Below, in pieces: positions 4,660 through 24,958 of a stretch of 64,000 bases of DNA. Origin of the DNA: Lentzea fradiae (GTDB taxonomy: Bacteria; Actinomycetota; Actinomycetes; Mycobacteriales; Pseudonocardiaceae). Numbering within the stretch: position 1 is the stretch's first letter; each line of letters opens with the position of its first letter. The translations under genes and the position numbers were made by a program. The stretch lies in contig NZ_FNCC01000001.1 in the NCBI RefSeq assembly GCF_900100955.1, positions 434,001 to 498,000 on the forward strand, given 5' to 3'. The notes below the pieces were generated by a model. That model did not search any database. It saw nothing but the letters and a program-made list of their open reading frames with translations, and was not told the origin of the DNA.

Positions 4660-5273
4660 CGCAGGCCGGTCCGGTTCTGCAGCGCCCCGATCTTCGTCCC
4701 GTACAGGAAGAACACGGCCATGAACACCTCGATCCGCTGCTGCGACGAGAGTCCGTCGAGGTCCACCGCGATCTCGGTGTCCCGCACGTCCGCGTTCTCC
4801 GCGAGCCGCCGGTTGAACACCGCCCTCGCGATGTCCTGGCAGCGTTCGTCGACGTCGGCGTGGAACAGGCGGCGCAGGTCGCAGTCGGGCGGCAGCGGGT
4901 GGCGGACGAGCTCGGCGGGGTAGCGGGCGTTCATGACCCGCGCGGCCGTGTTGAGCACGTGCGCGACGAGCTCGGGGCCCCTGTCGAAGTGCTCCACCAT
5001 CGCGACCAGCTCGTCGAGGGTCGCGACGTCCTCCTCGATGCTCACGGGCGTGCTGATGTCGAGGTCCAGGCGTTCCATCGCCATCGCGACGTTCTCGAGC
5101 ACCTGGCCGGGGTCGACCACGAACCGGTCGCCGAGGCGTGCGCTCGCGCGGTGGTGGTGCGGGTCGAGCAGCTCCTGCGTCTCGCGGTCCAGACGCAAGG
5201 GGAGCAAGTCGTCGTGGTCGGTCGTCACGCGGATGACGTGCCCATTTTGGAGCCCCCGCAACCGTCCAGTCAC
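4656..5273 (-). CDS. Hypothetical protein coupled to the DUF2867 dehydrogenase-like gene
   Basis: The frame gives up to 205 residues from GTG 5273; an internal GTG at 5228 would remove 15 residues and is equally defensible, as neither has a strong ribosome site. The product is acidic and helical, with no signal peptide or metal motif that I recognise. Its TGA overlaps the ATG of the downstream Rossmann/DUF2867 gene. It is divergent from the ECF sigma factor gene across a 120-bp gap. I do not recognise a family. Confidence 0.7.
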   Translation of the reverse strand: MTGRLRGLQNGHVIRVTTDHDDLLPLRLDRETQELLDPHHHRASARLGDRFVVDPGQVLENVAMAMERLDLDISTPVSIEEDVATLDELVAMVEHFDRGPELVAHVLNTAARVMNARYPAELVRHPLPPDCDLRRLFHADVDERCQDIARAVFNRRLAENADVRDTEIAVDLDGLSSQQRIEVFMAVFFLYGTKIGALQNRTGLR

Positions 5274-5322
5274 GAACGGACGATGCCCCGGCCGGACGCC
5301 GACCCCTCTGACCTGCGGCGCA

Positions 5323-5351
5323 GGGCAACCTGAACGGTTCGGGCCCGCGTT
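5323..5351 (+). promoter_or_regulatory. Candidate ECF-type promoter ahead of the sigma factor gene
   Basis: GGGCAACC at 5323-5330 and CGTT at 5348-5351 are separated by 17 bp. An AAC-containing -35 and a CGT-containing -10 are typical of group-4 (ECF) promoters, which are often autoregulated. The spacing is one base longer than usual, so this is tentative. Confidence 0.35.
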
Positions 5352-5393
5352 GGCAAGAGAGGGGTGGAAGGCGGAGCGAACCCGAGGAGCTTC

Positions 5394-5948
5394 ATGTCGT
5401 CAGACGCGGAACTGATCGGCAGATCACTGCGCGGAGACACAAACGCCTTCGTGGAAGTGATCAGCCGCCACGAGACCGCGATCGGGAACTACCTCGCGCG
5501 CCGGATCGGGCGCCAGGCGGCCGAGGACGTCCTCGGTGAGGTGTGGGTGGCGGCGTACGAGTCGCGGGCCACCTACGACCGGTCGTACCCGGAGGCCAGG
5601 CCCTGGTTGTACGGCGTCGCGCTGAACAGGCTGCGGCGGCACTGGCGGTCGGAACCGGCCGAGGACCCGGCGGCGGACCTGAGCGGGACGGCGACGGGCT
5701 GGGACCCGTGGCCCGCCGTGGACGCCCGTGTCGACGCGCAGGCACTGCTGCGCACGGCGCTGGCACGGCTGAGACCGGAGGAACGCGAGGTGCTCGGCCT
5801 GGTCGCCTGGGAGGACCTGACCGTCGCGGAGGCGGGCCGGGTGCTCGACCTGCCGGCCGGCACGGCACGCCGTCTGCTGCACCAGGCGCGCAAAGCGTTG
5901 CGAGAGGCCCCCGAGGTGGCCGTGCTGCTGCAGGTCCCGACAACGTGA
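5394..5948 (+). CDS. ECF (group 4) RNA polymerase sigma factor
   Basis: The 184-residue protein has sigma region 2 at about residues 10-80, with the DNA-melting and -10 recognition helix around AAEDVLGEVWVAAYESRATY, and region 4 at about 115-170 with the HTH DLTVAEAGRVLDLPAGTARR. A SnoaL-like C-terminal extension is absent. ATG 5394 was chosen over an upstream in-frame ATG because GAGGAG lies at 5384-5389. The adjacent gene encodes a membrane protein of the CU044_5270 type, the usual partner of this subgroup and a likely anti-sigma factor. Confidence 0.92.
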   Translation: MSSDAELIGRSLRGDTNAFVEVISRHETAIGNYLARRIGRQAAEDVLGEVWVAAYESRATYDRSYPEARPWLYGVALNRLRRHWRSEPAEDPAADLSGTATGWDPWPAVDARVDAQALLRTALARLRPEEREVLGLVAWEDLTVAEAGRVLDLPAGTARRLLHQARKALREAPEVAVLLQVPTT

Positions 5949-7024: not shown

Positions 7025-7027
7025 CCT

Positions 7028-7064
7028 GACCGGCGCGGGGGAGCACGGCTCTCCCGCGCCGGTC
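7028..7064. terminator. Bidirectional GC-rich terminator
   Basis: An inverted repeat pairs 7028-7043 with 7051-7064 (14 bp, with a GG bulge) around a 7-nt loop. It sits exactly between the + strand anti-sigma gene (ends 7024) and the - strand oxidoreductase pseudogene (ends 7067), so it can serve both. Confidence 0.7.
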
Positions 7065-7066
7065 GG

Positions 7067-7831
7067 TCATGCCACGTGCACGGCCAGACCGGTGACCCCC
7101 GGCGCGACCCCGGGCCGCAGCACGAGGTTCTCGTCGTAGTCACCGCCGCGTCCCGGCCGGTACGCGATCGGCTCGGTGGCCGGGATCGCGAGCAGCCGTT
7201 CCCGCAGGTGCGCGGCCGCCCGGTCGCCTTCCTCCGGTGTGTGGCGGTCGGCTCCGGTGACCAGCACCGGCGGCAGCACCTCCGCGCCGCCGTAGAACAG
7301 GATCCCGTGCTGCAACGGGAAGAGCAGGGCGTCGGCGGAGCCGTGGATGCCGCGCTCCCCGTACGTCCACGCCGGTCCGCCCGCCGTCACGACCGCCAGC
7401 GCGCGTGTGCCGGAGAGGAACCCGTCGCCGTAGCCGAGCCACTCGCCATCGGGGCCCCGGTGGCCGTAGGCGTACCCCTGGTGCCACACCCGGTCGAACC
7501 AGCCCTTGAGGATCGCGGGCATCCCGAACCATCACAGCGGGAACTGGACGACGAGCACGTCCGCCCGGTCGATCTTCTCCTGCTCCGCCCGGATGTCCGG
7601 CGCCACCTCGCCGTTCGCGTGCGCCCGTCGCGCGGCGGTGGCGACCTGGAAGCGCCCGGCCGGGTCGTGCGCGTAGTCCCCGGTGCCGACGACGGGGTTC
7701 CAGCCCATCTCGTAGAGGTCCGACACCACGACCTCGTGGCCCTCCTCGCGCAGCGCCCGCTGTCCCTCGGCGGCGAGGAAACCGTTGAGGGAACGGGGTT
7801 CGGGGTGGGCTTGGATCCACAGAACGTTCAT
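7067..7831 (-). pseudogene. NAD(P)H-dependent oxidoreductase (flavodoxin-fold), interrupted by an in-frame TGA
   Basis: One continuous frame of 255 codons encodes a quinone-reductase/MdaB-like flavoprotein. The N-terminal part is MNVLWIQAHPEPRSLNGF, and the C-terminal part runs from WFGMPAILKGWFDRV to GLAVHVA. At 7532-7534 a TGA replaces the first Trp codon of the family's FPLWWFGMPAILKGW motif, so the frame reads FPL-stop-WFG. Both halves are otherwise intact, conserved and in the same frame. A single base change would restore the gene. It is divergent from a GlxA-type regulator, a common arrangement for this family. A sequencing error or stop readthrough remains possible. Confidence 0.85.
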
Positions 7832-7902: not shown

Positions 7903-8886
7903 ATGACCGTTTTCGCGCGGGACGGCCGCCACCGCGTGGCCGTGCTGGTCCGCGACGGCGTGCTGCCGTTCGAGCTGAGCCTCGTGCACCGGCTCTTCGG
8001 CCAGGCCCGATCGGCCGCGGGCGCGCCCCTCTACGAGGTCGTGACCTGCACCACCGCACCGGGTGAGGTCCGCACGGACGCCGACTTCGCGGTCACCGTC
8101 GCGCACGGCCCGGAAGCGCTCGCCGAGGCGGACACGGTGGTGGTGCCGGGAGCCGACACCGACCACGCGCCCGGCGGCGTGCGCGTCGACCCGGCGCTGA
8201 CCGCCGCGCTGACGCGGATCCGGCCGGGCACGCGGATCGCGTCGATCTGCACGGGCGTGTTCGTGCTGGCCGCCGCGGGACTGCTGGCGGGCAGGCGGGT
8301 GGCGACGCACTGGCGTTCACCGGAGGAGGTCCGCGCGCGGTTCCCGGACGTCACCTTCGACCTCGACGTGCTCTACACCGACGACGACGGCGTGCTCACC
8401 TCGGCGGGCGCCGCCGCGGGCATCGACCTGTGCCTGCACATGATCCGCACCGACCACGGCGCCGCCGTCGCCAACGAGGTCGCCCGCGGCACGGTCGTCC
8501 CGCCGCACCGCGACGGCGGGCAGGCGCAGTACGTCACCCGGCCCGTGCCGGAGCCCGCGATCTCCTCGACCGGCAGAGCCCGCGAGTGGGCGCTCGCGAA
8601 CCTGCACCGGCCCGTGACGCTGCGGGAGCTCGCGGCCCAGGAGGCCACGAGCACCCGGACGTTCACACGCCGCTTCCGCGACGAGATCGGCACCTCGCCC
8701 GGCCGGTGGCTCACCCGGCAGCGGGTGGAACGGGCCTGCGCCCTGCTGGAGCGCACCGACCTCAGCGTCGACGAGGTCGCCGCCGCTGCCGGGTTCGGCA
8801 CCGCCGGGTCGATGCGCCTGCACCTGCAGGCCGAGCTGGGTGTCTCGCCGACCGCCTACCGTGCGACGTTCCGCGGCCGTGCCTGA
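7903..8886 (+). CDS. GlxA-type AraC-family transcriptional regulator
   Basis: The 327-residue protein has an N-terminal DJ-1/PfpI-like domain (residues 5-190), including the nucleophile-elbow sequence SICTGVFVLAAAG. A C-terminal AraC DNA-binding domain (about 220-325) carries two HTH units (LRELAAQEATSTRTFTRRF and VDEVAAAAGFGTAGSMRLH). This architecture is typical of GlxA-like regulators controlling a divergent gene; here the divergent gene is the broken oxidoreductase. ATG 7903 has GAGG eight bases upstream and was preferred to ATG 7876, which would place the inverted repeat within the coding region. Confidence 0.92.
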   Translation: MTVFARDGRHRVAVLVRDGVLPFELSLVHRLFGQARSAAGAPLYEVVTCTTAPGEVRTDADFAVTVAHGPEALAEADTVVVPGADTDHAPGGVRVDPALTAALTRIRPGTRIASICTGVFVLAAAGLLAGRRVATHWRSPEEVRARFPDVTFDLDVLYTDDDGVLTSAGAAAGIDLCLHMIRTDHGAAVANEVARGTVVPPHRDGGQAQYVTRPVPEPAISSTGRAREWALANLHRPVTLRELAAQEATSTRTFTRRFRDEIGTSPGRWLTRQRVERACALLERTDLSVDEVAAAAGFGTAGSMRLHLQAELGVSPTAYRATFRGRA

Positions 8887-8889
8887 GAC

Positions 8890-9579
8890 CTACGGGCGCC
8901 AGACGGTTCCGCGTCGTTCGTACTCCATCTGCGTCTCCACCTGGTGCGCCGTCCGCGCGCCGAGGAACCGTTCGACGAGCCACAGCGCGACGTCCAGGCC
9001 GGAGGTGATGCCACCGCCGGTGATCAGGTCGCCGTCGTCCACCACCCGCGCGTCGACCACGTTCGCCCCGCGCGCGGCGAGGTCGGCCTTCGCGCGGTGG
9101 TGCGTGGTGGCGTTGCGCCCGCGGGTGATCCCGGCCGCGGCCAGCACCATCGTGCCGGTGCAGATGCCCACCGGCAGCGCCTCGACCGCCGCCAGCCGGT
9201 CCAGGAACGCCTTGTCGGCCATCAGCCGGCGCACGCCCGTCCCGTTCGGGTCGGAGTAGCGGCCGCCGCCGGGCACCACCAGCACGTCCGCGTCCCGCGG
9301 CGACCAGCCCTGCCCGACGACCACCTTCGTCCCGTGCACGCACGTGACCGTCCCGGGCCTGCCCGTGGTGACCTGGGTAGTGCGGATCGCGCCCCCGGTC
9401 AGTGCCCCGGCGATGCTCAGCACCTCCACCGGTGCCCCGAAGTCCAGCTCCTCCACACCCTCGAACATCAGCACCTGGATGCGCAGCGGGTTCGCCGCCG
9501 ACGCCACCGCGGTGCCCGCCGCACCCGAGATGCCCAGGGACAGTGCCGATGCCCGGAGAAAAGTCCTGCGTTCCACCAC
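8890..9579 (-). CDS. Tat-exported DJ-1/PfpI-family protein
   Basis: The 229-residue protein begins VERRTFLRASALSLGISGAA, a twin-arginine signal followed by a hydrophobic stretch and an alanine-rich cleavage region near residues 25-29. The mature part is a DJ-1/PfpI fold with nucleophile Cys140 in GICTGT and a glutamate in the FEGVEELDF strand. It resembles isonitrile hydratase-like members, which are normally cytoplasmic, so the Tat signal is unusual. Two tandem GTG codons (9579 and 9576) follow GAGGAGG. It converges on the GlxA-type regulator with a 3-bp gap. Confidence 0.85.
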   Translation of the reverse strand: MVERRTFLRASALSLGISGAAGTAVASAANPLRIQVLMFEGVEELDFGAPVEVLSIAGALTGGAIRTTQVTTGRPGTVTCVHGTKVVVGQGWSPRDADVLVVPGGGRYSDPNGTGVRRLMADKAFLDRLAAVEALPVGICTGTMVLAAAGITRGRNATTHHRAKADLAARGANVVDARVVDDGDLITGGGITSGLDVALWLVERFLGARTAHQVETQMEYERRGTVWRP

Positions 9580-9641
9580 GTCCTCCTCGACTGGTCGCCG
9601 AGGTGCAGGTCGGACGGGAGGACCCGGCGGTTCCCGGCTCG

Positions 9642-10523
9642 TCAGGACTCGGGTGCGGTCCGAGGCGTGCGGGCGCCCGAGTCCGACGCCGTCCAGCTGG
9701 CCAGGAGGTCCATCGCCTGGCGTGAGGGCGAGCCGGGAGGCGTCGTGTAGACGTACAGCATCATGTCCGGGTCACCGGGCAGCGCGAGCGACTCGTACTC
9801 GACGGTCAGCTCGCCGACCAGCGGGTGCCGCAGCCGCTTCGACCCGTGCGTCCGCTGGTGCACCCGGTGCTGCTCCCACCACTGGTCGAAGTCGCTGCTG
9901 CGTTCCCGCAGCTCGGCCACGAGCGTGCCGGTGGCCGCGTCGGCCGGGTCCTTGCCGACCTCGAACCGCAGGCTCTCCACCGCGGCACGGGCCTGGTCGC
10001 GCCAGTCGATGAACAACGCGCGGGCGCTCTCGTCGAGGAAGATCCACCGCGCGTAGTTGCGCTCCTTCGGCGGCATCGCGTCGAAGTCCGCGAACAACGC
10101 CTTCGCCATCCGGTTCGCCGCGAGCACGTCGGTCCGGCGCCCCAGCACCAGCGCCGGCTCCCCGTCGAGCGCGTCGATGAGCTGGTGGAGCCCCGGCCGC
10201 ACCCGCTGCACGGCCCGCGACCGGCGCGGCGCCGGGTTGGCGGGCAGCCCGATCAGGTCCCGCAGGTGGGTGCGTCCGGCGTCGTCCAGCTCCAGCGCAC
10301 GCCCGATGGCCTCGACCACCGCCTCCGACGGGTTGATCCGCCTGCCCTGTTCGAGCCGCGCGTAGTAGTCGGCCGACACCCCGGCCAGCAGCGCGACCTC
10401 CTCGCGGCGCAACCCCTTGACCCGCCGGACCCGCCCGTCGGAGGGCAGCCCGGCACGGGACGGGTCGACCTGGGCACGGGCGCGGCGCAGGAAGTCGGCG
10501 AGTTCGCGGTTGAGTCCGGCCAT
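9642..10523 (-). CDS. Helix-turn-helix regulator with MmyB-like ligand domain
   Basis: The 293-residue protein has an Xre-type HTH at residues 5-85 (RRVKGLRREEVALLAGVSAD, then YYARLEQGRRINPSEAVVEA). A PAS-like MmyB domain at about 105-280 contains the LGRRTDVLAANRMAKALFADF motif. MmyB-like regulators are abundant in actinomycetes, where the C-terminal domain is thought to bind a fatty-acid-like ligand. ATG 10523 opens the conserved MAGLNRELADFLRRAR start. It is divergent from the GntR gene across 155 bp and may control the Tat-exported protein downstream. Confidence 0.9.
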   Translation of the reverse strand: MAGLNRELADFLRRARAQVDPSRAGLPSDGRVRRVKGLRREEVALLAGVSADYYARLEQGRRINPSEAVVEAIGRALELDDAGRTHLRDLIGLPANPAPRRSRAVQRVRPGLHQLIDALDGEPALVLGRRTDVLAANRMAKALFADFDAMPPKERNYARWIFLDESARALFIDWRDQARAAVESLRFEVGKDPADAATGTLVAELRERSSDFDQWWEQHRVHQRTHGSKRLRHPLVGELTVEYESLALPGDPDMMLYVYTTPPGSPSRQAMDLLASWTASDSGARTPRTAPES

Positions 10524-10623
10524 GCGCCCCATTGTCGGGCAGCCGCGGGCGTCGTGCCTGGACCTCCGAGTCCTCGGTTCGCGAGTTCCTCCCCGCGTCC
10601 ACACCGGACCGGCGCCCGAGGTG

Positions 10624-10652
10624 CTGACACGTCCCGCATCGGCCGCTACCGT
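10624..10652 (+). promoter_or_regulatory. Sigma70-type promoter for the GntR gene
   Basis: CTGACA (10624-10629) and TACCGT (10647-10652) are separated by 17 bp, giving a predicted start about 20 nt before ATG 10679. Confidence 0.5.
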
Positions 10653-10678
10653 GACCCGATGCCCACCCCGGTCCCGCG

Positions 10679-11425
10679 ATGAGCCGCTCCCCGAGGCGCC
10701 GGTCGGTCGTCGTGGCGAAGCTGGAGGCGGGCCGCGGCGGTACCGCGCAGGCGGCGATCCTGGCCGAGCTGCGGCGGTGCCTGCTGGACGGGGTGCCGCC
10801 GGGCAGCGCCATCCCGCTCGACGAGGTGGCGGCGGTGTTCGGGGTCAGCCGGATCCCGGTGCGGGAGGCGCTCAAGACGCTGATCGGCGAGGGCCTGGTC
10901 GAGCACCGGCCGAACTTCGGCTACACGGTGGCGAAGCTGACGCCGGAGGAGCTGCACGAGCTGTACGTGGTGCGAGGTGTGCTGGAGGCGGCGGCGTTGG
11001 GGGCGGCGGTGTCGCGGGCCACTGCGGCGGATGACGAACTGGCCGCCGACGCGCACGGTGCGCTGGCCGACGCGCTGGCGGCCGGGGACGTGCGGGCCTA
11101 CCACCGGGAGAGCAGGCGGTTCCACCTCGCGCTGGTGCGGCCGAGTGGCATGAGACGGCTGCTGGACATGTTCGAGTCGGCCTGGAACCTCACCGAACCG
11201 TTGCAGCCCATGGCACACGTGCCGGCGGAGGAACGGCGCACGCTGCACGCCGACCACGGCGGCATGCTCGCGGCGTTCACCGGGCGGGACGCGGCGGGGC
11301 TGGTGGAGGCGGCCAGGGTGCACCACGAGCGGCTGCGGTCGTCGCTCGCGGCGGTGCCGAGGGACACCGGGCTCTTCGCTGCGGGGCCTTCCGCGGCCTC
11401 CCGGGAAGATATACGTCTCCCGTAG
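10679..11425 (+). CDS. GntR/FadR-family (FCD domain) transcriptional regulator
   Basis: The 248-residue protein has a winged HTH at residues 25-90 (LDEVAAVFGVSRIPVREALK is the recognition region) and an all-helical FCD ligand domain at about 95-225. FCD regulators usually respond to small carboxylates or amino-acid derivatives and control the adjacent catabolic or transport genes, here the NCS1 permease and the racemase. The C-terminal tail of about 20 residues lies beyond the domain. ATG 10679 is the first good start after the promoter-like site at 10624-10652. Confidence 0.9.
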   Translation: MSRSPRRRSVVVAKLEAGRGGTAQAAILAELRRCLLDGVPPGSAIPLDEVAAVFGVSRIPVREALKTLIGEGLVEHRPNFGYTVAKLTPEELHELYVVRGVLEAAALGAAVSRATAADDELAADAHGALADALAAGDVRAYHRESRRFHLALVRPSGMRRLLDMFESAWNLTEPLQPMAHVPAEERRTLHADHGGMLAAFTGRDAAGLVEAARVHHERLRSSLAAVPRDTGLFAAGPSAASREDIRLP

Positions 11426-12924: not shown

Positions 12925-13640
12925 AGATCAAGGTCGTCAACCCCAACACCAGCAGGGCCATGACCGCGGCGATCGGCCGCGCGGCCTGCGCGGTCGCCGG
13001 GCCGGGCGTCGAGGTGCTGGCCACCTGCCCGGCGATGGGGCCCGCGTCGATCGAGAGCCACTACGACGAGGCGCTCAGCGTGCCGGGGCTGCTCGCCGAG
13101 ATCGCGGCGGACCGGGCGGACGGCTACGTGATCGCCTGCTTCGGCGACCCCGGCCTGGACGCCGCGCGGGAGCTGGCCGACGGCCCGGTGGCGGGCATCG
13201 CCGAGGCGGCCATGCGCACGGCGGCCTACCTGGGCGGCGGGTTCAGCGTCGTCACGACGCTGAACCGCACCACGGGCCGGGCCTGGGACCTCGCGCGGCG
13301 GTACGGGCTGGCCGGGTTCTGCCGCGGGGTGACGGCCTGCGACGTGCCGGTGCTGGAGGTGGAGGCCGCGGTGGACACCGTGGTCGCCGCCTGCCGCGCG
13401 GCGGTGCGGGCGGACCGCTCGGACGTGGTCGTGCTCGGCTGCGCGGGCATGACCGAACAGCGGGAGGAGATCGAACGCCGGGTCGGCGTGCCCGTCGTGG
13501 ACGGTGTCCAAGCCGCGGTGCTGCAAGTGGAGTCGTTGGTGCGCATGGGTTTGCGCACCTCCGCTGCTGGTGAGTTCGCCGCGCCGCCGCCGAAACCGTA
13601 CACCGGCCTGCTGGAGCGGTTCGCGGTGGGCGTGAACTGA
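12921..13640 (+). CDS. Hydantoin/allantoin racemase (Asp/Glu racemase superfamily)
   Basis: The 239-residue protein starts VKIKVVNPNTS, the classic HyuE-type N-terminus. It has the two catalytic cysteines expected of a two-base racemase: Cys73 in IACFGDPGLD and Cys174 in VVLGCAGMTE. Such enzymes interconvert D- and L-5-substituted hydantoins or (R)/(S)-allantoin before ring opening. GTG 12921 overlaps the permease TGA. No hydantoinase, allantoinase or carbamoylase is found in the window, so the pathway must be completed elsewhere. Confidence 0.92.
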   Translation: MKIKVVNPNTSRAMTAAIGRAACAVAGPGVEVLATCPAMGPASIESHYDEALSVPGLLAEIAADRADGYVIACFGDPGLDAARELADGPVAGIAEAAMRTAAYLGGGFSVVTTLNRTTGRAWDLARRYGLAGFCRGVTACDVPVLEVEAAVDTVVAACRAAVRADRSDVVVLGCAGMTEQREEIERRVGVPVVDGVQAAVLQVESLVRMGLRTSAAGEFAAPPPKPYTGLLERFAVGVN

Positions 13641-13642
13641 GC

Positions 13643-13684
13643 ATCGACGGTGATCGATGGTTGAATTCATCGATCGCCGTCGAT
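13643..13684. promoter_or_regulatory. Long inverted-repeat operator with embedded promoter
   Basis: Arms at 13643-13659 and 13668-13684 match at 16 of 17 positions around an 8-bp centre containing TTGAAT. TTGAAT (13662-13667) and TACAGT (13684-13689), 16 bp apart, form a sigma70-like promoter lying inside the repeat. A repressor bound here would block it directly, as ArsR/SmtB-type repressors do. No repressor gene is adjacent. Confidence 0.7.
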
Positions 13685-13731
13685 ACAGTGCGCCTCGCTG
13701 GTTCGATGCGGCTCGAAGCGAGGAGTACGTG

Positions 13732-15060
13732 GTGGACGAATTTCCGGTCGTGGTCGTCGGTGCGGGGCCCACGGGTCTGGCCGCGGCGGCACACCTGGCC
13801 GAACGGGGCGAGCGGGTGCTCGTGCTGGAGGCGGGCGACCGCGCGGGGGCCGCTGTGGCGCGGTGGCACCACGTCTGGCTGTTCTCCCGCTGGAGCGAGC
13901 TGGTCGACCCGGCGGCGGAGCGGCTGCTCGGTGCCACGGGCTGGGTGCGTCCGGACGACGACGGCTACCCGACCGGTGCGGAGTGGGCGGACCGCTACCT
14001 CACGCCGCTGGCCGAGGCCCTGGGCGACCGGGTGCGGTTCGGCGCGCGGGTGACCGGCGTGGCACGCCGCGGCCGCGACCGGGTCGTGGACGCGGGACGT
14101 GCGGACGAACCGCTGACCGTGCACGTGGGAGACGAACGGATCACCGCCCGCGCGGTGGTCGACGCGTCCGGCACCTACGGCTCACCGAACCCGCTGGGCG
14201 GCGACGGCCTGCCGGCGGCGGGGGAGGAAGCGGCAGCCGAGCGGATCACCTACCGCGTGCCGGACGTCGCCGCGGACCCGTCCCGCTACGCGGGCAGGCG
14301 GATCGCGGTCGCGGGCAGCGGCCACTCCGCGCTCACCGCGTTGGTCGCGCTGGCGGACCTGGCGGAACGGGAGCCCGGCACGGAGGTCGTGTGGCTGCTG
14401 CGCCGGGGTGAGCCCGGCACGGCCTTCGGCGGCGGCGAGGCGGACCAGCTGCCCGCCCGCGGCGCACTCGGCCTGCGGGCGCGCAAGGCCGTGGAGGCAG
14501 GGCACGTCGAGACGGTCACCGGGTTCCGCACCGCGGCGGTGGAACGCGGTGACGACGGCAGGCTCACGCTGACGTCGTCCGGCGGCCACCGCGTGACCGG
14601 AGTGGACGAGGTGGTGGCGCTGACCGGGTTCCGGCCCGACCTGTCGTGGCTGTCGGAGATCCGCCTCGACCTCGACCCGGTGCTGCAGGCACCGGCGGCG
14701 CTCGCGCCGTTGGTCGACCCGAACGTCCATTCGTGCGGCACCGTGTACCCACATGGTGAAAGCGAGCTGCGGCACCCGGAGCCCGGTGTTTACCTGGTGG
14801 GCATGAAGAGCTACGGACGTGCGCCGACGTTCCTGGCGCTGACGGGGTACGAGCAGGTCCGGTCCGTCGCGGCCGCGATCGCCGGTGACCACGAGGCGGC
14901 GCGGCGCGTCGAGCTGGTGCTGCCGGAAACGGGGGTGTGCGGGGGTTCCGGGGCGTTCGACGCTCCACAAGAGCCGGACGCTCCGCGCGACCAGGACAGC
15001 GGTGGTTGTTGTGGTGCACCGTCGAGCGTGCCGATCACCCTCGTGACCGGTGACCGCTGA
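13732..15060 (+). CDS. FAD/NAD(P)-binding flavoprotein with cysteine-rich tail
   Basis: The 442-residue protein has an FAD-binding motif VVVVGAGPTGLAAAAHLAE at the N-terminus and a second dinucleotide motif IAVAGSGHSALTALVALA near the middle, as in flavin monooxygenases and thioredoxin-reductase-like enzymes. The end carries LPETGVCGG and SGGCCGA, giving a Cys and a Cys pair. From memory, homologues with this tail occur in actinobacterial arsenic-resistance loci, so thiol/metalloid chemistry is plausible but unproven. GTG 13732 was chosen behind AGGAG (13721-13725); longer frames run through the operator. Confidence 0.85.
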   Translation: MDEFPVVVVGAGPTGLAAAAHLAERGERVLVLEAGDRAGAAVARWHHVWLFSRWSELVDPAAERLLGATGWVRPDDDGYPTGAEWADRYLTPLAEALGDRVRFGARVTGVARRGRDRVVDAGRADEPLTVHVGDERITARAVVDASGTYGSPNPLGGDGLPAAGEEAAAERITYRVPDVAADPSRYAGRRIAVAGSGHSALTALVALADLAEREPGTEVVWLLRRGEPGTAFGGGEADQLPARGALGLRARKAVEAGHVETVTGFRTAAVERGDDGRLTLTSSGGHRVTGVDEVVALTGFRPDLSWLSEIRLDLDPVLQAPAALAPLVDPNVHSCGTVYPHGESELRHPEPGVYLVGMKSYGRAPTFLALTGYEQVRSVAAAIAGDHEAARRVELVLPETGVCGGSGAFDAPQEPDAPRDQDSGGCCGAPSSVPITLVTGDR

Positions 15061-16240
15061 CACCGAGGCGCGGCCCGGCCTCGACGCCGGGCTGCGCCGC
15101 GTGCTGGTCGTCCTGTGCACCACCGAGATCATCAGCTGGGGCGTGCTCTACTACGCCTTCCCCGTGCAGCTGCCGGCGATCGGGGCGAGCACGGGGTGGT
15201 CGAACGCGGTGGTCACCGCCGGGTTCTCGGCCAGCCAGGTCGTCGCCGGTCTCGTGGGCATCCCGGTCGGCAGGCTGCTCGACCGGCACGGCCCGCGCGT
15301 GATCATGACGACCGGGTCGGCCCTCGCCGCGGTCGCGCTGGTGGCCCTCGCGACCGCGGAGTCGCTGGCGTGGTTCGTCGCGGCCTGGGTGCTCACCGGG
15401 GTCGCGATGGCCGGTGTCTTCTACGCGCCCGCCTTCGCCGCCGTGACCCGCTGGTTCGGGCCGCGGCGGGTGACGGCGCTGACGGCGCTGACCCTGGTCG
15501 GCGGACTGGCCAGCACGGTCTTCGCGCCGTTGACGGCCGTGCTCACCGGCCGCTTGGACTGGCGTGTCACCTACCTGCTGCTCGCCGGGTTCCTGGCCGT
15601 CACCACGGTTCCGTTGCACCTGTGGGGCCTGCGGCTGCCGTGGCCGGCGGCTGAGCACGAGACCGCTCGCGCGCCGTCCTCGGTGGCGCGCAGCAGGACG
15701 TTCCTCGTGCTCGTCGTCGCGATGAGCCTGGCCGCGTTCAGCGTGTACGCCGTCGTCGTGAACCTCGTGCCGCTGCTGACCGGACGAGGCATGACGACCT
15801 CGGCCGCCGCCGTCGCGCTCGGCCTGGGCGGGGTCGGCCAGGTGCTCGGCAGGCTCGGGTACGCCCGGCTGGCCGCGCGCACGTCGGTGCGGGTGCGGAC
15901 GTCGCTGGTGCTGCTGGTCGGCGCGGCGGCGACGACACTGCTGGGGCTCGTGCCGGGACCGGCGCTGCTGCTGGTCGCCGGGTCGGTCGTCGCGGGCGTC
16001 ACGCGCGGGATCTTCACGCTGGTGCAGGCCACCGCCATCACCGACCGGTGGGGACCCGTCCACTACGGACGGCTCAACGGCCTGCTGACCGCGCCCCTCA
16101 TGCTCAGCTCCGCCATCGCGCCGTGGGCGGGCAGCGCGCTGGCGGCGTGGCTGGGCGGCTACCCGGCGGTCTTCGTGGTGCTGGGCGTGACCGGGGTGCT
16201 GGCGGCGGCGCTGTCCACCGCCAGCGTGCCGCGCCTCTGA
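15050..16240 (+). CDS. MFS transporter, probable exporter coupled to the flavoprotein
   Basis: The 396-residue protein has about twelve hydrophobic helices and the MFS loop-2/3 motif GIPVGRLLDRHGPRV (the G-x3-D-(R/K)-x-G pattern). The first helix region (STTEIISWGVLYYAFPV-like) resembles members paired with the Cys-tailed flavoprotein. GTG 15050 overlaps the flavoprotein gene by 11 bp, so both are on one message from the promoter at 13662-13689. Export of a product or substrate of the flavoprotein, possibly an organic arsenical, is an inference from pairing only. Confidence 0.85.
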   Translation: MTADTEARPGLDAGLRRVLVVLCTTEIISWGVLYYAFPVQLPAIGASTGWSNAVVTAGFSASQVVAGLVGIPVGRLLDRHGPRVIMTTGSALAAVALVALATAESLAWFVAAWVLTGVAMAGVFYAPAFAAVTRWFGPRRVTALTALTLVGGLASTVFAPLTAVLTGRLDWRVTYLLLAGFLAVTTVPLHLWGLRLPWPAAEHETARAPSSVARSRTFLVLVVAMSLAAFSVYAVVVNLVPLLTGRGMTTSAAAVALGLGGVGQVLGRLGYARLAARTSVRVRTSLVLLVGAAATTLLGLVPGPALLLVAGSVVAGVTRGIFTLVQATAITDRWGPVHYGRLNGLLTAPLMLSSAIAPWAGSALAAWLGGYPAVFVVLGVTGVLAAALSTASVPRL

Positions 16241-18108: not shown

Positions 18109-19056
18109 TCAGGCCATCGGGATGGTGCCGCGGCGCCACTGCCAGTGGCCGCCCGCCTCGAGGTGCTCGACGACGGCGCGCTGCAAGGCCGTGCGGCGGG
18201 GCAGTTCGTGCAGCGGGGTGGTCAGGCTGCGGAAGACGAACCGCAGCACCTCGACGTCGGGGTCGATGCCCTCCGGCGCCTCGTAGGGCTCCAGCTCGAA
18301 CCTGTCCTGGAACCGGATGATGTTCGAGTCGGCGGGCAGGTGCTCCCGCAGCCGCGGGTCGAGCAGCCACGAGCCGCAGGAGAACACGGTGCGGTGCTCG
18401 TCGGGGAAGTGCCGGGGGAAGAACGCGCGGGCCTCGTCGAGCGACGCCGTCACGGCCTCCGGGGCGAGCGGCCCGGAGTCGGGGATGTGCAGGGCGATCT
18501 CACCGTCGGCGCGCTGGTGCTGCAACCGGCCGAGCTCGTAGAGCCCGCCGCGCACGTGCAGCGTGAGCCAGCTCCGCATGACCGGCCAGCCTTCGCCCCG
18601 CATCCGCCGGTCGACCGCGAGGTTGCGGCCCAGGTCCGCGAGGGTCGCCCAGGACACGGCCTCGGGGACGCCGTGGTCGCGGTGGTAAAGCAGGACGACG
18701 TCGACCAAGGCCAGGTACACGTGGGCGTACAGGTGCCGCCAGGCGGGGCCGCGGTCGCGCGGCAGCTCCGGTCCCGGCACCAGCCAGCCGGCCCCGCCGA
18801 GGTCGGCCCGCACCAGGGCCGTCGACCGGTCGCGCAGCCACCGCAGCTCCGGCGTCCAGTGCGGGGAGTCCTGGTCCGGCCAGCTCGCGAGGATCTCGGC
18901 GGCGTCGTCCGGCGGTACCGCCAGCCGGTCGAGCAGCGCGGGCGCGGTCCCCTTGTCCGGCGGGGGAACCGGCGGCACGTCACCGGCGAGCCGGTGCACG
19001 TGCTCGGCTTCCTCGACGGGCACTCCGAGTCGTGCGGCGATGTCCTCAAGATCCAC
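18109..19056 (-). CDS. Acyltransferase-domain protein (NAT_N plus GNAT-like C-terminal domain)
   Basis: The 315-residue protein matches the two-domain actinobacterial acyltransferase family, as far as I recognise it. An N-terminal helical domain (residues 1-110, beginning with DLEDIAARLGVPVEEAEHVH) is followed by a GNAT-like half with LQHQRADGEIALHIPDSGPL at about 180-200 and the conserved FSCGSWLLDPRL. No acyl substrate can be assigned. GTG 19056 faces the 400-bp control region of the lanthipeptide operon, so it shares that divergent region. Confidence 0.75.
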   Translation of the reverse strand: MDLEDIAARLGVPVEEAEHVHRLAGDVPPVPPPDKGTAPALLDRLAVPPDDAAEILASWPDQDSPHWTPELRWLRDRSTALVRADLGGAGWLVPGPELPRDRGPAWRHLYAHVYLALVDVVLLYHRDHGVPEAVSWATLADLGRNLAVDRRMRGEGWPVMRSWLTLHVRGGLYELGRLQHQRADGEIALHIPDSGPLAPEAVTASLDEARAFFPRHFPDEHRTVFSCGSWLLDPRLREHLPADSNIIRFQDRFELEPYEAPEGIDPDVEVLRFVFRSLTTPLHELPRRTALQRAVVEHLEAGGHWQWRRGTIPMA

Positions 19057-19209: not shown

Positions 19210-19458
19210 ACAAGCTCCTCGACATTGGCCCGCGCCTCGTGATCAATCGTTCGCGGTCGGGTCCGCGACGTGTGTCAACGTCGTCGGGGTGCGCCGATCG
19301 CGCTGGTTCATTGAAGGAGTTTCGCGTGTCAATTGGCAGGCGGAAGTGTTGTCTTCCGGTTGGAGAAAGGCCCTAGAGTTCTCGGTGGCGCGAAACCCGC
19401 GCCAGCTCCGGAATGTCTCTTTCCGGATTTGTTGTGTCGATCGCAAGGAGGAGATCAC

Positions 19459-19587
19459 ATGCTTTCTGCGGACATCCAGGACCTGTTCGAGCTCGACGTC
19501 GAGGAGCTGGAGCTGGTGGACACGCCGGTCCCGGCGCCCGCCCAGGCGGCGCCGCCCCGCACGATCACCACCTGCGCGATCTGCTGA
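19459..19587 (+). CDS. lanA: Class I lanthipeptide precursor with predicted 8-residue core
   Basis: The 42-residue peptide starts at ATG 19459 behind AAGGAGG. Residues 1-34 form an acidic leader with the FELD box (residues 10-13) that LanB proteins bind in nisin-like systems (F-(N/D/E)-L-D). A Pro/Ala-rich hinge (PVPAPAQAAPP) ends in PPR, which resembles the SPR protease site of nisin. The remaining TITTCAIC (35-42) contains three Thr for dehydration and two Cys for thioether rings; Thr35-Cys39 has the same spacing as nisin ring A. Downstream genes are lanB, lanC and an exporter. The exact cleavage point and ring pattern are inferred. Confidence 0.9.
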   Translation: MLSADIQDLFELDVEELELVDTPVPAPAQAAPPRTITTCAIC

Positions 19588-19592
19588 TCACC

Positions 19593-19622
19593 GGCGGGCC
19601 CCGTCGCACGGCGGGGCCCGCC
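19593..19622 (+). terminator. Intercistronic lanA-lanB attenuator hairpin
   Basis: An 11-bp perfect, entirely G:C stem (19593-19603 with 19612-19622) with an 8-nt loop lies five bases after the lanA stop and 25 bp before lanB. Without a U-tract it likely acts as a partial terminator or mRNA stabiliser, giving more precursor than enzyme mRNA. Confidence 0.7.
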
Positions 19623-19647
19623 CCACGACTGCCTGGGGGACGGTGAC

Positions 19648-22542
19648 ATGGACACCCGCTTCGTCGCTTCGGACCGGTTTCTCCTGCGTGCGCCCGTGCT
19701 GCCGAGGGTGCGCCTGCGGCCGTCCGAGGCCGGGGTGCGCGAGCGCGTGGAAGCGCCGATGGTGCGGGAGGCCGTCGCCGTCGCCAGTCCCGCGCTGAGC
19801 GAGGCGGTGGGCAAGCTGCTCGCGGGCCACGAGCCGCCGGACGCGGCGGCACGGCGGCTGCGGGGCGCGCTGGCGCGGTACGAGCTGCGCATGGCCGGGC
19901 GGCCGACCCCGTTCGGCCTGCTCGCGGGGGTGGCGGTCGGCCGGTTCGCGGCCACCGCGGACGCCGGCCTGGGTACCCACCACCGCAGGCACGTCCACCC
20001 CGACCACGGCTGGCTCCACGAGTGGGCGACCGAGCTGGAGGCCGATCCGGGGGTCCTCGCCGGGCTGGAGGTCACCGCGAACACCCTGTGCACGCGGCAC
20101 GGCGGACGGCTCGTCGTGCCTCGCGGGACACGCCTGGCCGGTGTGCGCCGCACGCCCGCGGTCGCCCGCATGATCGAGATCGCCGCCACCCGGCCGATCG
20201 CCGTGCACGAGCTCGTCCGCGTCGTCGGGAAGGAGTTCCCCGGCGTGCGGCGGTCCGGGTTCGCCGCGCTGGTGAGGCAGCTGGTGCGGCTGGGGTTCCT
20301 GCAGACGGAGCTGCGGCGGCCGGGGAGGTCGTTCGACGACCTGGTCCGCCTGCTGCCCGCGGAATCGTCGCACGGCGAACGTGCCGAACTGGTCGCCAAG
20401 ACCGTCGACGTCTACCGGCGCAGTCCGGTGGGGAACGGCGCGGACGATTTGTCCGCTGTGCGGAGAGCGGCCGGTGCGGACAATCCGGTACAGGTCGATC
20501 TCGAATTGGACGCACGCGTCCGTCTGCCGTATCGAGTAGCCAGAGAAATAGAACGCGCCGCCGACGCCGTGTGGCGTCTTTCCGCTCACGAAAACATGCG
20601 TTCTCGCAACCTCGTCGATTTTCACGCACGCTTCTTGGAAAGATACGGAATCGGCGAGCCGGTGCCGGTGCTCGACCTGCTCGACCCGGACGCGGGCATC
20701 GGGCCGCCCGCCGGGTACGAGCAGCCGTGGTCGGCCTCGGAGGCGGAGCAGGACGGCTCCCGGCACGCCGTGCTGACCCGGCTGCTGGCGGAGGCGCTGG
20801 CCGACGGAGTCACCGAGGTGGTGCTCGACGACGACCTGATCGCCCGGCTCTGCCCACCCGGTGGCAGCCCGCCCGCCGCGGTGGAGCTGTTCACCACGCT
20901 GCACGCCGCCTCCGCAGAAGCGCTGGAGCGCGGCGACTTCGAGCTGGTCGTCAGCCCGCTGGCCGGAACCCAGCAGGGCGGCGCGTCGCTCGCCCGGTTC
21001 GGCCACCTCCCCGAGGTGCGCGGCCTGCTCGCCGAACTGGCGGCGGTGGGGGCGGACGACCGGCTGCCGGTGCAACTCGTGCACGCCACGACGAACCCAC
21101 GTGACGCCAACCTGGCGCGTGCACCGCAGGTGCTGTGCCACACGCTGGCGGTCGGAGTGCCCGGACTGCCGGGTGCTCTCATGCCGGGCGACATCGTGGT
21201 CACAGCGGACGAGCGGCGGTTGCGGCTCCACTCGCTGTCGCTCGGCCGTGAGATCGCTCCACGCGTGCTGCACGTGCTGGACATCAGCGCGGCGGCACCC
21301 GAGGTCGTCCGGTTCCTCTGGGACGTGTCGCTGATGGGCGTGCGCACCCTGAAACCGTGGGACTGGGCCGGGTTGCGGGACGCCCCGTTCCTGCCCGCGG
21401 TCCGGTACGGGCGCACGGTGCTCTCGCCGGCCCGGTGGCGGGCAGGCGAGGCGGAGGTGGGCGCGGACGAGGCGCTCGCCGCGTGGAGGCGGAGGTGGCG
21501 GGTACCGGACCGGGTCCGCGTGACGCACCACGACCAGCAGCTGTGCCTGGACCTCACGTCACCCGAGCACCGCGCGCTGCTGCGCGACGAGCTGCGCAAG
21601 TCCGGTGGCACGGTGGTCTTGTGCGAGGACCGCGCACCCGCGCTGGACGAGGGCTGGCTGCGCGGACCGGACGGAGCCCACGAGGCGGAGCTGGTCGTCC
21701 CACTGGTCGCGGTCGAGCCCAAGAGCCGTCCGGCACGGCCGTCAGCTCCGTTGCGCACCAAGCCCGTGGCGCACCTTCCCGGTGGCGACTGGGTGTCCGC
21801 GCACGTCCTGTGCTCGGCGCGGCGGCAGCGCGAGGTCCTGGTGTCCCACCTGGGGCCGTGGCTCGACACGCTGGAGTCCGTTGTGGACAGATGGTTCTTC
21901 GTGCGCTACCAGTCGCAGGACGAACCACCGCACATCCGCCTGCGGCTGCACGGCGACGTGCTCCCGCAGGTGCGCGACCAGGTGGCGGCGCTGGTGGACG
22001 CGAGGCTGTCCGGCGGCTTCTCGGTCCACCCCTACCGCCCCGAGGTCGAACGGTACGGCGGCGAGCCGCTCCTCGGTTTGGCGGAACGGTTCTTCGCCGC
22101 GGACAGCGGACTGGCACTGCGCAAGATGAGCGCCGCACAGGACTCCATCGCCGTCGCCGCCGACGTGACCGCGCTGGTCCGCTGCTTCCACGGCGTCCAG
22201 CACAGCGCCGAGTGGCCGTCGTGGCTGCTGTCCGCGATGCCCAAGAACGAGGCGACGCACCAGGCGTTCGCGCACCGGCGCGGTGACGCGCTGGCGGCGA
22301 TCACCCTGGAGCCCGTGGCGGCGGACCGCGAGTGGGGCGAAGTGCTGTCCCGGTACGGGAAAGAGGCCCGTGCGCTCGCGGAGTCCCACGCATGGGTGTC
22401 GCCCGACGAGATCCTCCGCGCTCTCCTGCACCTGCACTGCAACCGCCGGCTCGGTGCGGACTTCCGGGCGGAGGCCGAGGTGTACGCGATGGCGCGTGGC
22501 GCGGTGCAGGCACACGTGGACCGCAGGAGACACGCGCGGTGA
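19648..22542 (+). CDS. lanB: Class I lanthipeptide dehydratase, full length
   Basis: The 964-residue enzyme contains both halves of a class I LanB. The glutamylation domain spans about residues 1-700, with the signature RMAGRPTPFGLL at 81-92. The SpaB_C elimination domain follows at about 712-955, with FVRYQSQDEPPHIRLRLHG. LanB uses glutamyl-tRNA to glutamylate Ser/Thr of the core and then eliminates glutamate to give Dha/Dhb. The undivided form argues against a thiopeptide pathway, which uses split dehydratases. A stretch at about 20440-20650 uses A/T-ending and AGA/ATA codons unlike the rest of the gene. Confidence 0.95.
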   Translation: MDTRFVASDRFLLRAPVLPRVRLRPSEAGVRERVEAPMVREAVAVASPALSEAVGKLLAGHEPPDAAARRLRGALARYELRMAGRPTPFGLLAGVAVGRFAATADAGLGTHHRRHVHPDHGWLHEWATELEADPGVLAGLEVTANTLCTRHGGRLVVPRGTRLAGVRRTPAVARMIEIAATRPIAVHELVRVVGKEFPGVRRSGFAALVRQLVRLGFLQTELRRPGRSFDDLVRLLPAESSHGERAELVAKTVDVYRRSPVGNGADDLSAVRRAAGADNPVQVDLELDARVRLPYRVAREIERAADAVWRLSAHENMRSRNLVDFHARFLERYGIGEPVPVLDLLDPDAGIGPPAGYEQPWSASEAEQDGSRHAVLTRLLAEALADGVTEVVLDDDLIARLCPPGGSPPAAVELFTTLHAASAEALERGDFELVVSPLAGTQQGGASLARFGHLPEVRGLLAELAAVGADDRLPVQLVHATTNPRDANLARAPQVLCHTLAVGVPGLPGALMPGDIVVTADERRLRLHSLSLGREIAPRVLHVLDISAAAPEVVRFLWDVSLMGVRTLKPWDWAGLRDAPFLPAVRYGRTVLSPARWRAGEAEVGADEALAAWRRRWRVPDRVRVTHHDQQLCLDLTSPEHRALLRDELRKSGGTVVLCEDRAPALDEGWLRGPDGAHEAELVVPLVAVEPKSRPARPSAPLRTKPVAHLPGGDWVSAHVLCSARRQREVLVSHLGPWLDTLESVVDRWFFVRYQSQDEPPHIRLRLHGDVLPQVRDQVAALVDARLSGGFSVHPYRPEVERYGGEPLLGLAERFFAADSGLALRKMSAAQDSIAVAADVTALVRCFHGVQHSAEWPSWLLSAMPKNEATHQAFAHRRGDALAAITLEPVAADREWGEVLSRYGKEARALAESHAWVSPDEILRALLHLHCNRRLGADFRAEAEVYAMARGAVQAHVDRRRHAR

Positions 22543-23768
22543 CCGTCCTGGCGTGGCTGGAGGACGCCGTCCGCAGGCTCAGCAGACCTGAGGAGGTGGA
22601 CCTGGGCAACGGTGACTGGCCGCACCACCCGATGTCGCTCGCGGACGGGCACTGCGGCTTGGCCGTGCTGTTCGCGCGGGCCGGTGACAGGACGCCGGAG
22701 CTGCGCGCCGCCGCCCACGACCACCTGGCCACCGCCGCGACCTCCCGAAGGCCACCCGTCGAGAACCTGTTCGACGGCCTGCCGTCGCTGGGGTTCGCCG
22801 CCCGCAGCGCCGCGCGGGCGGAGGGCGACTACCGGGGTGTGCTCGCCAAGATCGACCCGCACGTGCTGCGCTTGGCCGGGAACGTGCTCGGCGCCGAGGA
22901 GACGCGCCTGCTCGCCCGCGAGCCCGGCGCCAGGATGGCTTGCTACGACGTCACCTCCGGGCTGACCGGGATCGGCAGGTACCTGCTTGCCGCCGGGCCG
23001 CCCGCCCGTCCCGTGCTGGAGCGGCTGCTGAGGTACCTGGTGCGGCTCACCGACCCGGTGCGGGTGCGCGGCCACCGCGTGCCGGGCTGGTGGACCCCGG
23101 ACCCGTCGCTGCTCGCGAACCCGGTCGCGCACCCGGACGGTCACCTCAACCTCGGGATGGCGCACGGGATCTCCGGCCCGCTGGCCCTGCTGGCGCTGTG
23201 CCACGCGGACGGGGTCGTGGTCGAGGGGCACGACGAGGCGATCCACCGCGTCACGACCTGGCTGCTGTCCCGCCGCGGCACCGACGAGCACGGCCGGTAC
23301 TGGCCCGCGCTGGTGCCCCTGGACGACGAGGTGGCGGGCACCGCCGACGCGCTGCCGCCGAGCCGGGTCGCCTGGTGCTACGGAGCACCGGGGGTCGCGC
23401 GGGCCGTGCAGCTCGCCGGGATCGCGCTGGACGAACCCGAGTGGGAGGCCGAGGCGAGGTCGACGCTGAGGGCGGCGTTCCGGCGGCCACGGGAGCAGTG
23501 GGGCCTGCGCGACGCGTCCCTCTGCCACGGGTCCGCGGGCGTCCTGCACGCCACCAGGCTCGTCCTCGGCGCCGATGCGGACGTGCTGCCCGCCCTCTAC
23601 GACCACCTGCTGGACCAGCGCGACGGCCACACGGTCGTCACGGTGCCGCCCGACCGGCCGGGGTTCCTCGACGGCGCGGCCGGGACGTTCCTCGCGCTGC
23701 ACGACCACCTCGCCCCCGTGCTGTCACCGGCGTCCCTGCCGTGGGACGCCGCGCTGGTGCTGAGGTGA
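22539..23768 (+). CDS. lanC: Lanthionine synthetase C-like cyclase
   Basis: The 409-residue protein has the LanC zinc site: Cys280 in AWCYGAPG and Cys329-His330 in LCHGSAG, plus the catalytic-region His209 in GMAHGISG. The enzyme adds the core cysteines onto the dehydrated threonines to make methyllanthionine rings. GTG 22539 overlaps the LanB TGA as GTGA, so the two modifying enzymes are translationally coupled and probably form a complex. Length and motif spacing are normal for class I LanC. Confidence 0.95.
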   Translation: MTVLAWLEDAVRRLSRPEEVDLGNGDWPHHPMSLADGHCGLAVLFARAGDRTPELRAAAHDHLATAATSRRPPVENLFDGLPSLGFAARSAARAEGDYRGVLAKIDPHVLRLAGNVLGAEETRLLAREPGARMACYDVTSGLTGIGRYLLAAGPPARPVLERLLRYLVRLTDPVRVRGHRVPGWWTPDPSLLANPVAHPDGHLNLGMAHGISGPLALLALCHADGVVVEGHDEAIHRVTTWLLSRRGTDEHGRYWPALVPLDDEVAGTADALPPSRVAWCYGAPGVARAVQLAGIALDEPEWEAEARSTLRAAFRRPREQWGLRDASLCHGSAGVLHATRLVLGADADVLPALYDHLLDQRDGHTVVTVPPDRPGFLDGAAGTFLALHDHLAPVLSPASLPWDAALVLR

Positions 23769-24958
23769 GCACCCGCACGCACACCGGCCACGGGATCACC
23801 CTGCTGACGACGGCGACCGCCGTCTCCGCCACGGGCAACGGGTTCGGGCGGATCGCCGTGACGTTCGGCGTGCTGCAACTGCCGGGTGGGACCGCGCAGG
23901 GCCTGTCCGTCGTGCTGGCGTGCCTTGTGGTGCCGCAAGTCCTGTTCGTCGTGTTCGGCGGGGTGCTGGCCGACCGGGTGAGCCGGTTCCGGCTGCTCGT
24001 GCTGTCCGACGTCGTGTCCGCGCTGGCCCACACGGGCTTTGCCGCCGGACTGTGGTGGCACGCCTCGATCCCGGTGCTGGCCGCGTTCGCCGCCGTCGCC
24101 GGGACCGCGCAGTCGGTGTCCGGACCGGCCGTCGTCGGGCTGGTGCCCGAACTCGTGCCCGCGGACCGGCTGCAACAGGCGAACAGCCTGGTGATGACCG
24201 CCGTGCGCGGCGCGGACCTGGCCGGCACCGCGCTGGGCGGCTTCGTCGTCACGTGGCTGGGGTCGCCCGCGACGGTCCTGTTGAACGCCGCGTCCTTCGC
24301 CGTCGGCGCGGCGCTGCTGTCCTTCCTGCGGCTGCCCGCACGGGTGCGCGCCGAGTCCGGGTCCGTGCTCGCGGACCTGCGGCTCGGCTGGCGGGAGCTC
24401 ACCGGCAGGAGGTGGTTGTGGAGCACGGTGATCGTGCTGTCGGCCACCTCGGGCGTGCTCGCCGCGACGATGGGCGTCCTGGGACCGCTGGTCGCCCTGG
24501 ACACCTGGGACAGCGTCCGGGCGTGGTCGCTGATCGCCGCGGCGAGCACGGCCGGGATGCTGTGCGGCGCCGCGGTCTCCGCGCGGCTGCGGCCCGGCCG
24601 GCCGGTGCGGGCCGGGCTGCTGCTGTTGCCGCTCCTGGCCGTGCCGCTGGTGCTGCTGGCCGGTGGCGCGTCACCGTGGCTGGTGGCCCCGGCGATGTTC
24701 GGCGCGGGGCTCGCCACCGACGTGTTCGGGGTGCTGTGGCACACGACCCTGCAACGCCAGGTGCCGCAGGACGTGCTCGCCAGGGTCGCGTCCTACGACT
24801 GGCTGGGAACGATGGTGCTCGCCCCGGCAGGCGTGCTGGTCGCGGCGCCGCTCAGCACCGCCTTCGGCACCGGTCCGGTGCTGGTGGGGTGCGCCGTGCT
24901 GGTGGCGGCGTCCTCACTCGGGGCCTTGGCGTCCCGCGAGGTGCGGAACCTCCGGTGA
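23765..24958 (+). CDS. MFS exporter of the lanthipeptide operon
   Basis: The 397-residue membrane protein belongs to the DHA3/enterobactin-exporter-like MFS group (about eleven to twelve helices; loop motif GGVLADRVSRFRLLVLSD). GTG 23765 overlaps the lanC stop as GTGA, so it completes the lanABC transcript. It probably exports the modified peptide or the mature product, taking the place of the ABC-type LanT usual for class I systems. No protease or immunity gene follows. Its last 45 bp overlap the convergent esterase gene. Confidence 0.9.
   Translation: MSTRTHTGHGITLLTTATAVSATGNGFGRIAVTFGVLQLPGGTAQGLSVVLACLVVPQVLFVVFGGVLADRVSRFRLLVLSDVVSALAHTGFAAGLWWHASIPVLAAFAAVAGTAQSVSGPAVVGLVPELVPADRLQQANSLVMTAVRGADLAGTALGGFVVTWLGSPATVLLNAASFAVGAALLSFLRLPARVRAESGSVLADLRLGWRELTGRRWLWSTVIVLSATSGVLAATMGVLGPLVALDTWDSVRAWSLIAAASTAGMLCGAAVSARLRPGRPVRAGLLLLPLLAVPLVLLAGGASPWLVAPAMFGAGLATDVFGVLWHTTLQRQVPQDVLARVASYDWLGTMVLAPAGVLVAAPLSTAFGTGPVLVGCAVLVAASSLGALASREVRNLR

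Follow-up and report, generated by a model that had tools for sequence, protein, structure and literature searches.

The window, a 64,000-nucleotide stretch of the Lentzea fradiae genome, carries a short precursor gene followed by the genes for a lanthipeptide dehydratase, a cyclase, and a transporter, arranged as follows.

19459 to 19587, forward strand: lanA, encoding a 42-residue precursor with a FELD box at residues 10 to 13 and a predicted core at residues 35 to 42.
19561 to 19584, forward strand: predicted octapeptide core TITTCAIC, directly 3' of the codon for the invariant Arg34 (19558 to 19560).
19588 to 19647, forward strand: lanA-lanB intergenic hairpin, a probable attenuator or mRNA stabilizer setting the ratio of precursor to enzymes.
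19648 to 22542, forward strand: lanB, encoding a full-length lantibiotic dehydratase of 964 amino acids, identified by Pfam and by matches to MibB and NisB.
22539 to 23768, forward strand: lanC, encoding a lanthionine cyclase of 409 amino acids, identified by Pfam and by its match to NisC; its GTG start overlaps the lanB stop (GTGA).
23765 to 24958, forward strand: gene for an MFS transporter and possible exporter, identified by Pfam and NCBIfam; its GTG start overlaps the lanC stop (GTGA).

The lanA open reading frame is intact, is preceded by a GGAGG ribosome-binding site, and translates as MLSADIQDLFELDVEELELVDTPVPAPAQAAPPRTITTCAIC up to its stop codon. At the predicted cut it divides into MLSADIQDLFELDVEELELVDTPVPAPAQAAPPR and TITTCAIC, and the FELD leader box described in an earlier note on this DNA is present once. 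Arg34 is the sole Arg or Lys of the precursor. The computed [M+H]+ of the octapeptide is 825.385 unmodified, 789.363 with two dehydrations, and 771.353 with three. None of the curated NCBIfam RiPP precursor models gave LanA a score above its cut-off; a match to the daptide model (E value of 0.092; 12.5 bits against a cut-off of 25) was rejected.

Both modification enzymes appear complete. LanB matched the Pfam families Lant_dehydr_N (2.6e-160) and Lant_dehydr_C (7.4e-41), and PF04738 and PF14028 occupy residues 36 to 645 and 715 to 952, respectively, giving a full-length LanB with glutamylation and elimination domains. Its nearest solved structure is MibB (5EHK; 1.9e-108), and NisB (4WD9) matched at 6.6e-34. 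LanC matched LANC_like (1.1e-42), 8BYK (3.8e-28), and NisC (2G02; 1.3e-12). For mapping we used the residues required in NisB (R83 through R826) and in NisC (D141, H212, and the zinc ligands). NisB R83, R87, T89, D121, D299, R464, R786, and R826 are all retained in LanB, a mapped set from which the elimination residue His961 is absent, having fallen outside the alignment. NisC D141 and H212, together with the zinc ligands C284, C330, and H331, map to identical residues in LanC. Since the mapped catalytic residues are kept, an ordinary, working class I pathway is expected. A search of the genome (8.5 Mb in 43 contigs) found no second LanB or LanC. The class I lanthipeptide operon proposed earlier is thus upheld, with an intact lanA lying 5' of full-length lanB and lanC.

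A peptide-pattern scan of 84,980 species genomes revealed only two close relatives of this LanB, in Umezawaea endophytica (L014; 73% identity) and Amycolatopsis sacchari (L015; 66% identity), the next relatives standing at about 40%. The U. endophytica precursor reads MLSTDTQDLLELDVQEFELTDSPADAPTQSGPVR followed by TITTCAIC, and that of A. sacchari reads MHANETQDLLELDVQEFELPATAAEPPSQQIPPR followed by TVTACTLC. A profile built from these three precursors found a fourth, MPVEKLDDLFDIEIEEAEIETAVENGIVAYPTIDR followed by TITTCAIC, in a probable Micromonospora of the same order (L050/L068). All four end in R followed by T-[IV]-T-[TA]-C-[AT]-[IL]-C, with R34, T35, T37, C39, and C42 among the invariant positions, and the FxLD-type leader adjoining a Ser/Thr/Cys core is kept in the homologues. 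Three homologous precursors with a FELD-type leader and a short core next to lanB and lanC, or to a remnant of them, were recovered from three independent genomes. Because the same octapeptide or a close, conservative variant recurs in three distant relatives, the peptide looks real and selected. In a LanB tree built by a quick method, the three intact members group together with full support, and their nearest neighbors are the proteins of L021/L037 (support of 93).

The fourth locus is incomplete. Its precursor gene (4874 to 5005) is followed by a hairpin and then by a 161-residue open reading frame (5067 to 5552, forward strand). Residues 1 to 91 of its product align with the LanB N terminus (39%; 1e-12) and the final part aligns with the LanC C terminus, as expected from a deletion running from within lanB to within lanC or from an assembly error. 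A second LanB/LanC pair (37 to 38% identity) lies elsewhere in that genome, on contig C102, and might or might not act on the TITTCAIC precursor. Precursor and profile searches of the family, order, class, and phylum, and of the Micromonospora-like genus and its family, yielded no fifth member; the 1,998 genomes searched in total include some searched repeatedly, the distinct number being smaller, and the family is thus rare, with four members among at most 2,000 genomes. Other low-scoring profile matches were unconvincing, most covering the acidic leader only, and two that were inspected (L113 and L114) are not precursors. Literature searches with TITTCAIC, ITTCAIC, and TVTACTLC, and with A. 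sacchari plus lanthipeptide, found no paper in the library searched; the matches for Umezawaea plus lanthipeptide treat other subjects, going by their titles and abstracts.

The comparison bears directly on where the leader ends. Comparison of the window with Umezawaea shows changes at 8 of the 14 residues in the linker (residues 20 to 33) and at none of the nine that make up Arg34 and the core, a stretch that differs by a single synonymous change. Against A. sacchari, 9 of the 14 and 4 of the nine are changed, R34, T35, T37, C39, and C42 all being kept, and the fourth precursor retains RTITTCAIC despite its diverged leader. As leader and linker drift while Arg34 and the last eight residues hardly change, the alignment favors an octapeptide core starting after Arg34. 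The Arg/Thr boundary and very short core proposed in the earlier note are strengthened by the three homologous precursors, which keep the Arg and the octapeptide at their C termini, and no close homologue showed a longer core or another boundary. The Pro/Ala hinge of the same note did not survive the comparison: its letters differ among the homologues, and it is missing from the fourth precursor.

Between its FxLD box and the proposed cut the leader spans 21 residues; the corresponding spacing is about 14 in nisin and 13 in precursors of the planosporicin type, and a cut upstream of Arg34 would therefore also fit. The mature product might then be a longer class I lanthipeptide, cut for example near P27/A28 at a nisin-like distance, or a ladder of lengths left by an endoprotease and aminopeptidase trimming. 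The operon's lack of a protease would suit such processing, which has a precedent in lanthipeptides of classes III and IV, trimmed stepwise by AplP-like metalloproteases whose genes lie outside the cluster (PMC10885120). We nevertheless judge a longer product rather unlikely, as residues 20 to 33 are the most variable of the precursor and hold no invariant Ser, Thr, or Cys, in contrast to the conserved Arg34 and core.

Within the octapeptide, the Thr35-Cys39 ring suggested earlier stays a possible prediction, both residues being invariant. The accompanying Thr38-Cys42 ring is weakened; in A. sacchari, residue 38 is Ala, and a ring through Thr38 therefore cannot be a conserved feature. Invariant Thr37 is the better candidate for the second ring, and the simplest conserved pattern, as four sequences faintly suggest, may be Thr35-Cys39 overlapping Thr37-Cys42. 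Two overlapping rings would be crowded within eight residues, and spacing does not decide between two rings and one; a single ring, either Thr35-Cys39 or Thr37-Cys42, would leave a dehydrobutyrine and a free or oxidized Cys. None of the four precursors departs from the two Cys or from Thr35 and Thr37, which speaks against this outcome; we regard it as improbable.

The stop/start overlaps described previously are present at the lanB/lanC and lanC/MFS junctions but not between lanA and lanB, which are separated by 60 nucleotides holding a strong hairpin. A 66-nucleotide stretch spanning this gap folds at -41.9 kcal/mol, and the lanA-lanB gaps of the other three loci form hairpins of -44.5, -38.0, and -33.3 kcal/mol from changed sequences. 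Such an arrangement would probably favor the lanA transcript over lanBC. Inverted repeats also lie about 30 to 50 nucleotides 5' of lanA at all four loci; the sequences differ and the pairing is kept, as in TCCGGAA-N7-TTCCGGA in the window (19407 to 19427), TCGGA-N9-TCCGA in A. sacchari, and GGCGGA-N8-TCCGCC in the Micromonospora-like genome. The best upstream dyad per genome had shuffle frequencies of 0.02, 0.09, 0.34, and 0.09, weak statistics by which a possible operator or 5' untranslated region hairpin is suggestive only.

The MFS protein matched MFS_1 (1.3e-22) and, far under that model's cut-off, TIGR00900 (5.7e-46). The earlier note had placed an exporter in the operon, and cotranscription is plausible in the window, but neither intact homologous locus has an MFS gene beside lanC; we rejected the exporter as a conserved component. 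In U. endophytica and A. sacchari lanABC stands alone, lacking the other window neighbors as well, and the conserved unit, as judged from these loci, is lanABC without the MFS gene. Pfam searches of neighboring proteins between 7.9 and 39 kb, which covered part of the open reading frames and included three proteins without a Pfam match, gave no sign of a protease, an ABC transporter, or an immunity family. This agrees with the absence of such genes noted before and means that no clustered LanP, LanT, or LanFEG of the nisin type was seen among these neighbors. About one-third of lanthipeptide regions are without a protease gene (PMC8960859).

Divergent to lanA, and adjoining a GH76 gene, lies a gene for a two-domain GNAT acyltransferase (18109 to 19056, reverse strand), whose closest solved structures are the glycopeptide acyltransferases Tcp24 and Dbv8 (2.2e-58). 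Given that likeness, and given that nocaviogua lipolanthines, whose residue numbering runs to 8, bear an acyl chain (PMC10435860), the enzyme might attach a fatty acyl chain to the octapeptide, making an N-acylated class I counterpart of the lipolanthines. We consider this very improbable, as orthologs (75 to 79% identity) occur in congeners that yielded no lanA, in one case with the same GH76 gene alongside; the Umezawaea ortholog is on a different contig from lanABC; and none lies near lanABC in U. endophytica or A. sacchari. Across ten genomes, the acyltransferase was rejected as a part of the system, being a neighbor conserved independently of lanABC.

Short cores are not confined to this family. 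Across the roughly 60 LanB loci surveyed, the C terminus lies 29 residues from the FxLD box in the TITTCAIC family and 37 in planosporicin-like precursors (cores of about 24 residues), and 25 to 31 in several unrelated precursors, among them those of L017, L024, L026, L021/L037, and L094-L097. Several other actinobacterial class I precursors have apparent Cys-containing cores of about 10 to 15 residues. The rarity of short class I cores was consequently overstated in the earlier note; they look like a recurring actinobacterial theme, of which the TITTCAIC family is an extreme case and no exception. The undescribed short-core precursors resemble those studied here in having short Cys-containing C termini beside LanB/LanC, and L021/L037 (FSISCEGSCTRPWCI) further share a LELFDLDVQDL-like leader with the TITTCAIC family, but their core sequences are dissimilar and their LanB identity is just 36 to 40% or so. 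At L017, Streptomyces hyaluromycini encodes a 36-residue class I precursor (7025 to 7135, forward strand), MHEQSAEFDLDIREDVEIEEQPTIGRSGVTCNSLGC, shorter than that of the window, which ends in GRSGVTCNSLGC and has a possible GR cut that would leave the ten-residue core SGVTCNSLGC. The near-identical precursors of L094-L097, lying 5' of LanB and ending in SGFSDICATLWPSC, come from four genomes of one genus and form a conserved short-core family.

Among characterized systems, nisin (NisA/NisB/NisC) shares with the window the FxLD leader, the two-domain LanB, the LanC, an Arg before the core, and the mapped catalytic residues. The predicted core differs from that of nisin in having 8 rather than 34 residues, and a nonconserved MFS protein takes the place of the ABC exporter, with LanP, LanT, and LanFEG not found nearby. 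The lipid II-binding S-x-x-x-C-T-P-G-C rings are absent; only the Thr35-x-x-x-Cys39 spacing is held in common. Class I lanthipeptides of the planosporicin/microbisporicin type are alike in LanB family, MibB being the nearest solved LanB, and in their actinobacterial FxLD leaders, but their cores of about 24 residues carry S-x-x-CTPGC where TITTCAIC stands here. Eight-residue lanthipeptides are known in class III, as lipolanthines (PMC10435860). The present peptide is like these in length only: theirs are kinase-type class III synthetases (LanKC), avionin, and an acyl chain, whereas the enzymes for dehydration and cyclization here are LanB and LanC, and the conserved unit contains none of the lipolanthine genes.

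We favor, with somewhat better than even confidence, a compact class I lanthipeptide cassette that makes a C-terminal octapeptide with two overlapping methyllanthionine rings. LanB would recognize the FELD-type leader, glutamylate core Thr residues through Glu-tRNA, and then remove the glutamate to form dehydrobutyrines, to which the zinc-dependent LanC would add Cys39 and Cys42. The resulting rings, Thr35-Cys39 and Thr37-Cys42, would overlap, with Thr38 left as dehydrobutyrine or Thr. A protease encoded elsewhere would cleave after the invariant Arg34, the MFS protein, where present, would probably export the product, and the lanA-lanB hairpin would keep the precursor above the enzymes. The loss of lanB and lanC from one of the four family loci counts against the cassette reading, as do the long leader spacing, the lack of a protease gene in the operon, and the nonconserved exporter. 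Relative to the interpretation offered in the earlier note, the class I operon, the short core, and its boundary have gained support, while the Thr38-Cys42 ring and the exporter as a member of the unit have lost it. The TITTCAIC precursors constitute a genuine and apparently undescribed class I lanthipeptide family with predicted cores among the shortest.

Because the core is nearly frozen and neither immunity genes nor a nisin-type lipid II motif was found, a small signaling or target-specific peptide may be inferred. A bolder proposal, doubtful yet reasonably possible, is that the two rings are interlocked, that the octapeptide is perhaps the smallest class I product, that its three-gene cassette has spread between actinomycete families, and that it acts as a signal or on a narrow target; such a role would explain a near-frozen core beside a drifting leader. 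If made, the octapeptide would show how short a sequence can suffice for a LanB/LanC pair to form overlapping thioether rings and would offer a very small scaffold for thioether-ringed peptides. As a single Arg precedes the core, trypsin alone should free the predicted product, and one coexpression experiment would be enough for testing.

Two further LanB loci were encountered. Asanoa iriomotensis (L016) has two convergent full-length LanBs (8001 to 10970, forward strand, and 13283 to 16240, reverse strand) and no LanC match in the locus. On a Streptomyces anthocyanicus plasmid (L073; NZ_CP109229.1, 322347 to 335166), a LanB of 40.8% identity with no annotated LanC nearby adjoins genes for a thiamine pyrophosphate-binding protein and for MFS proteins.
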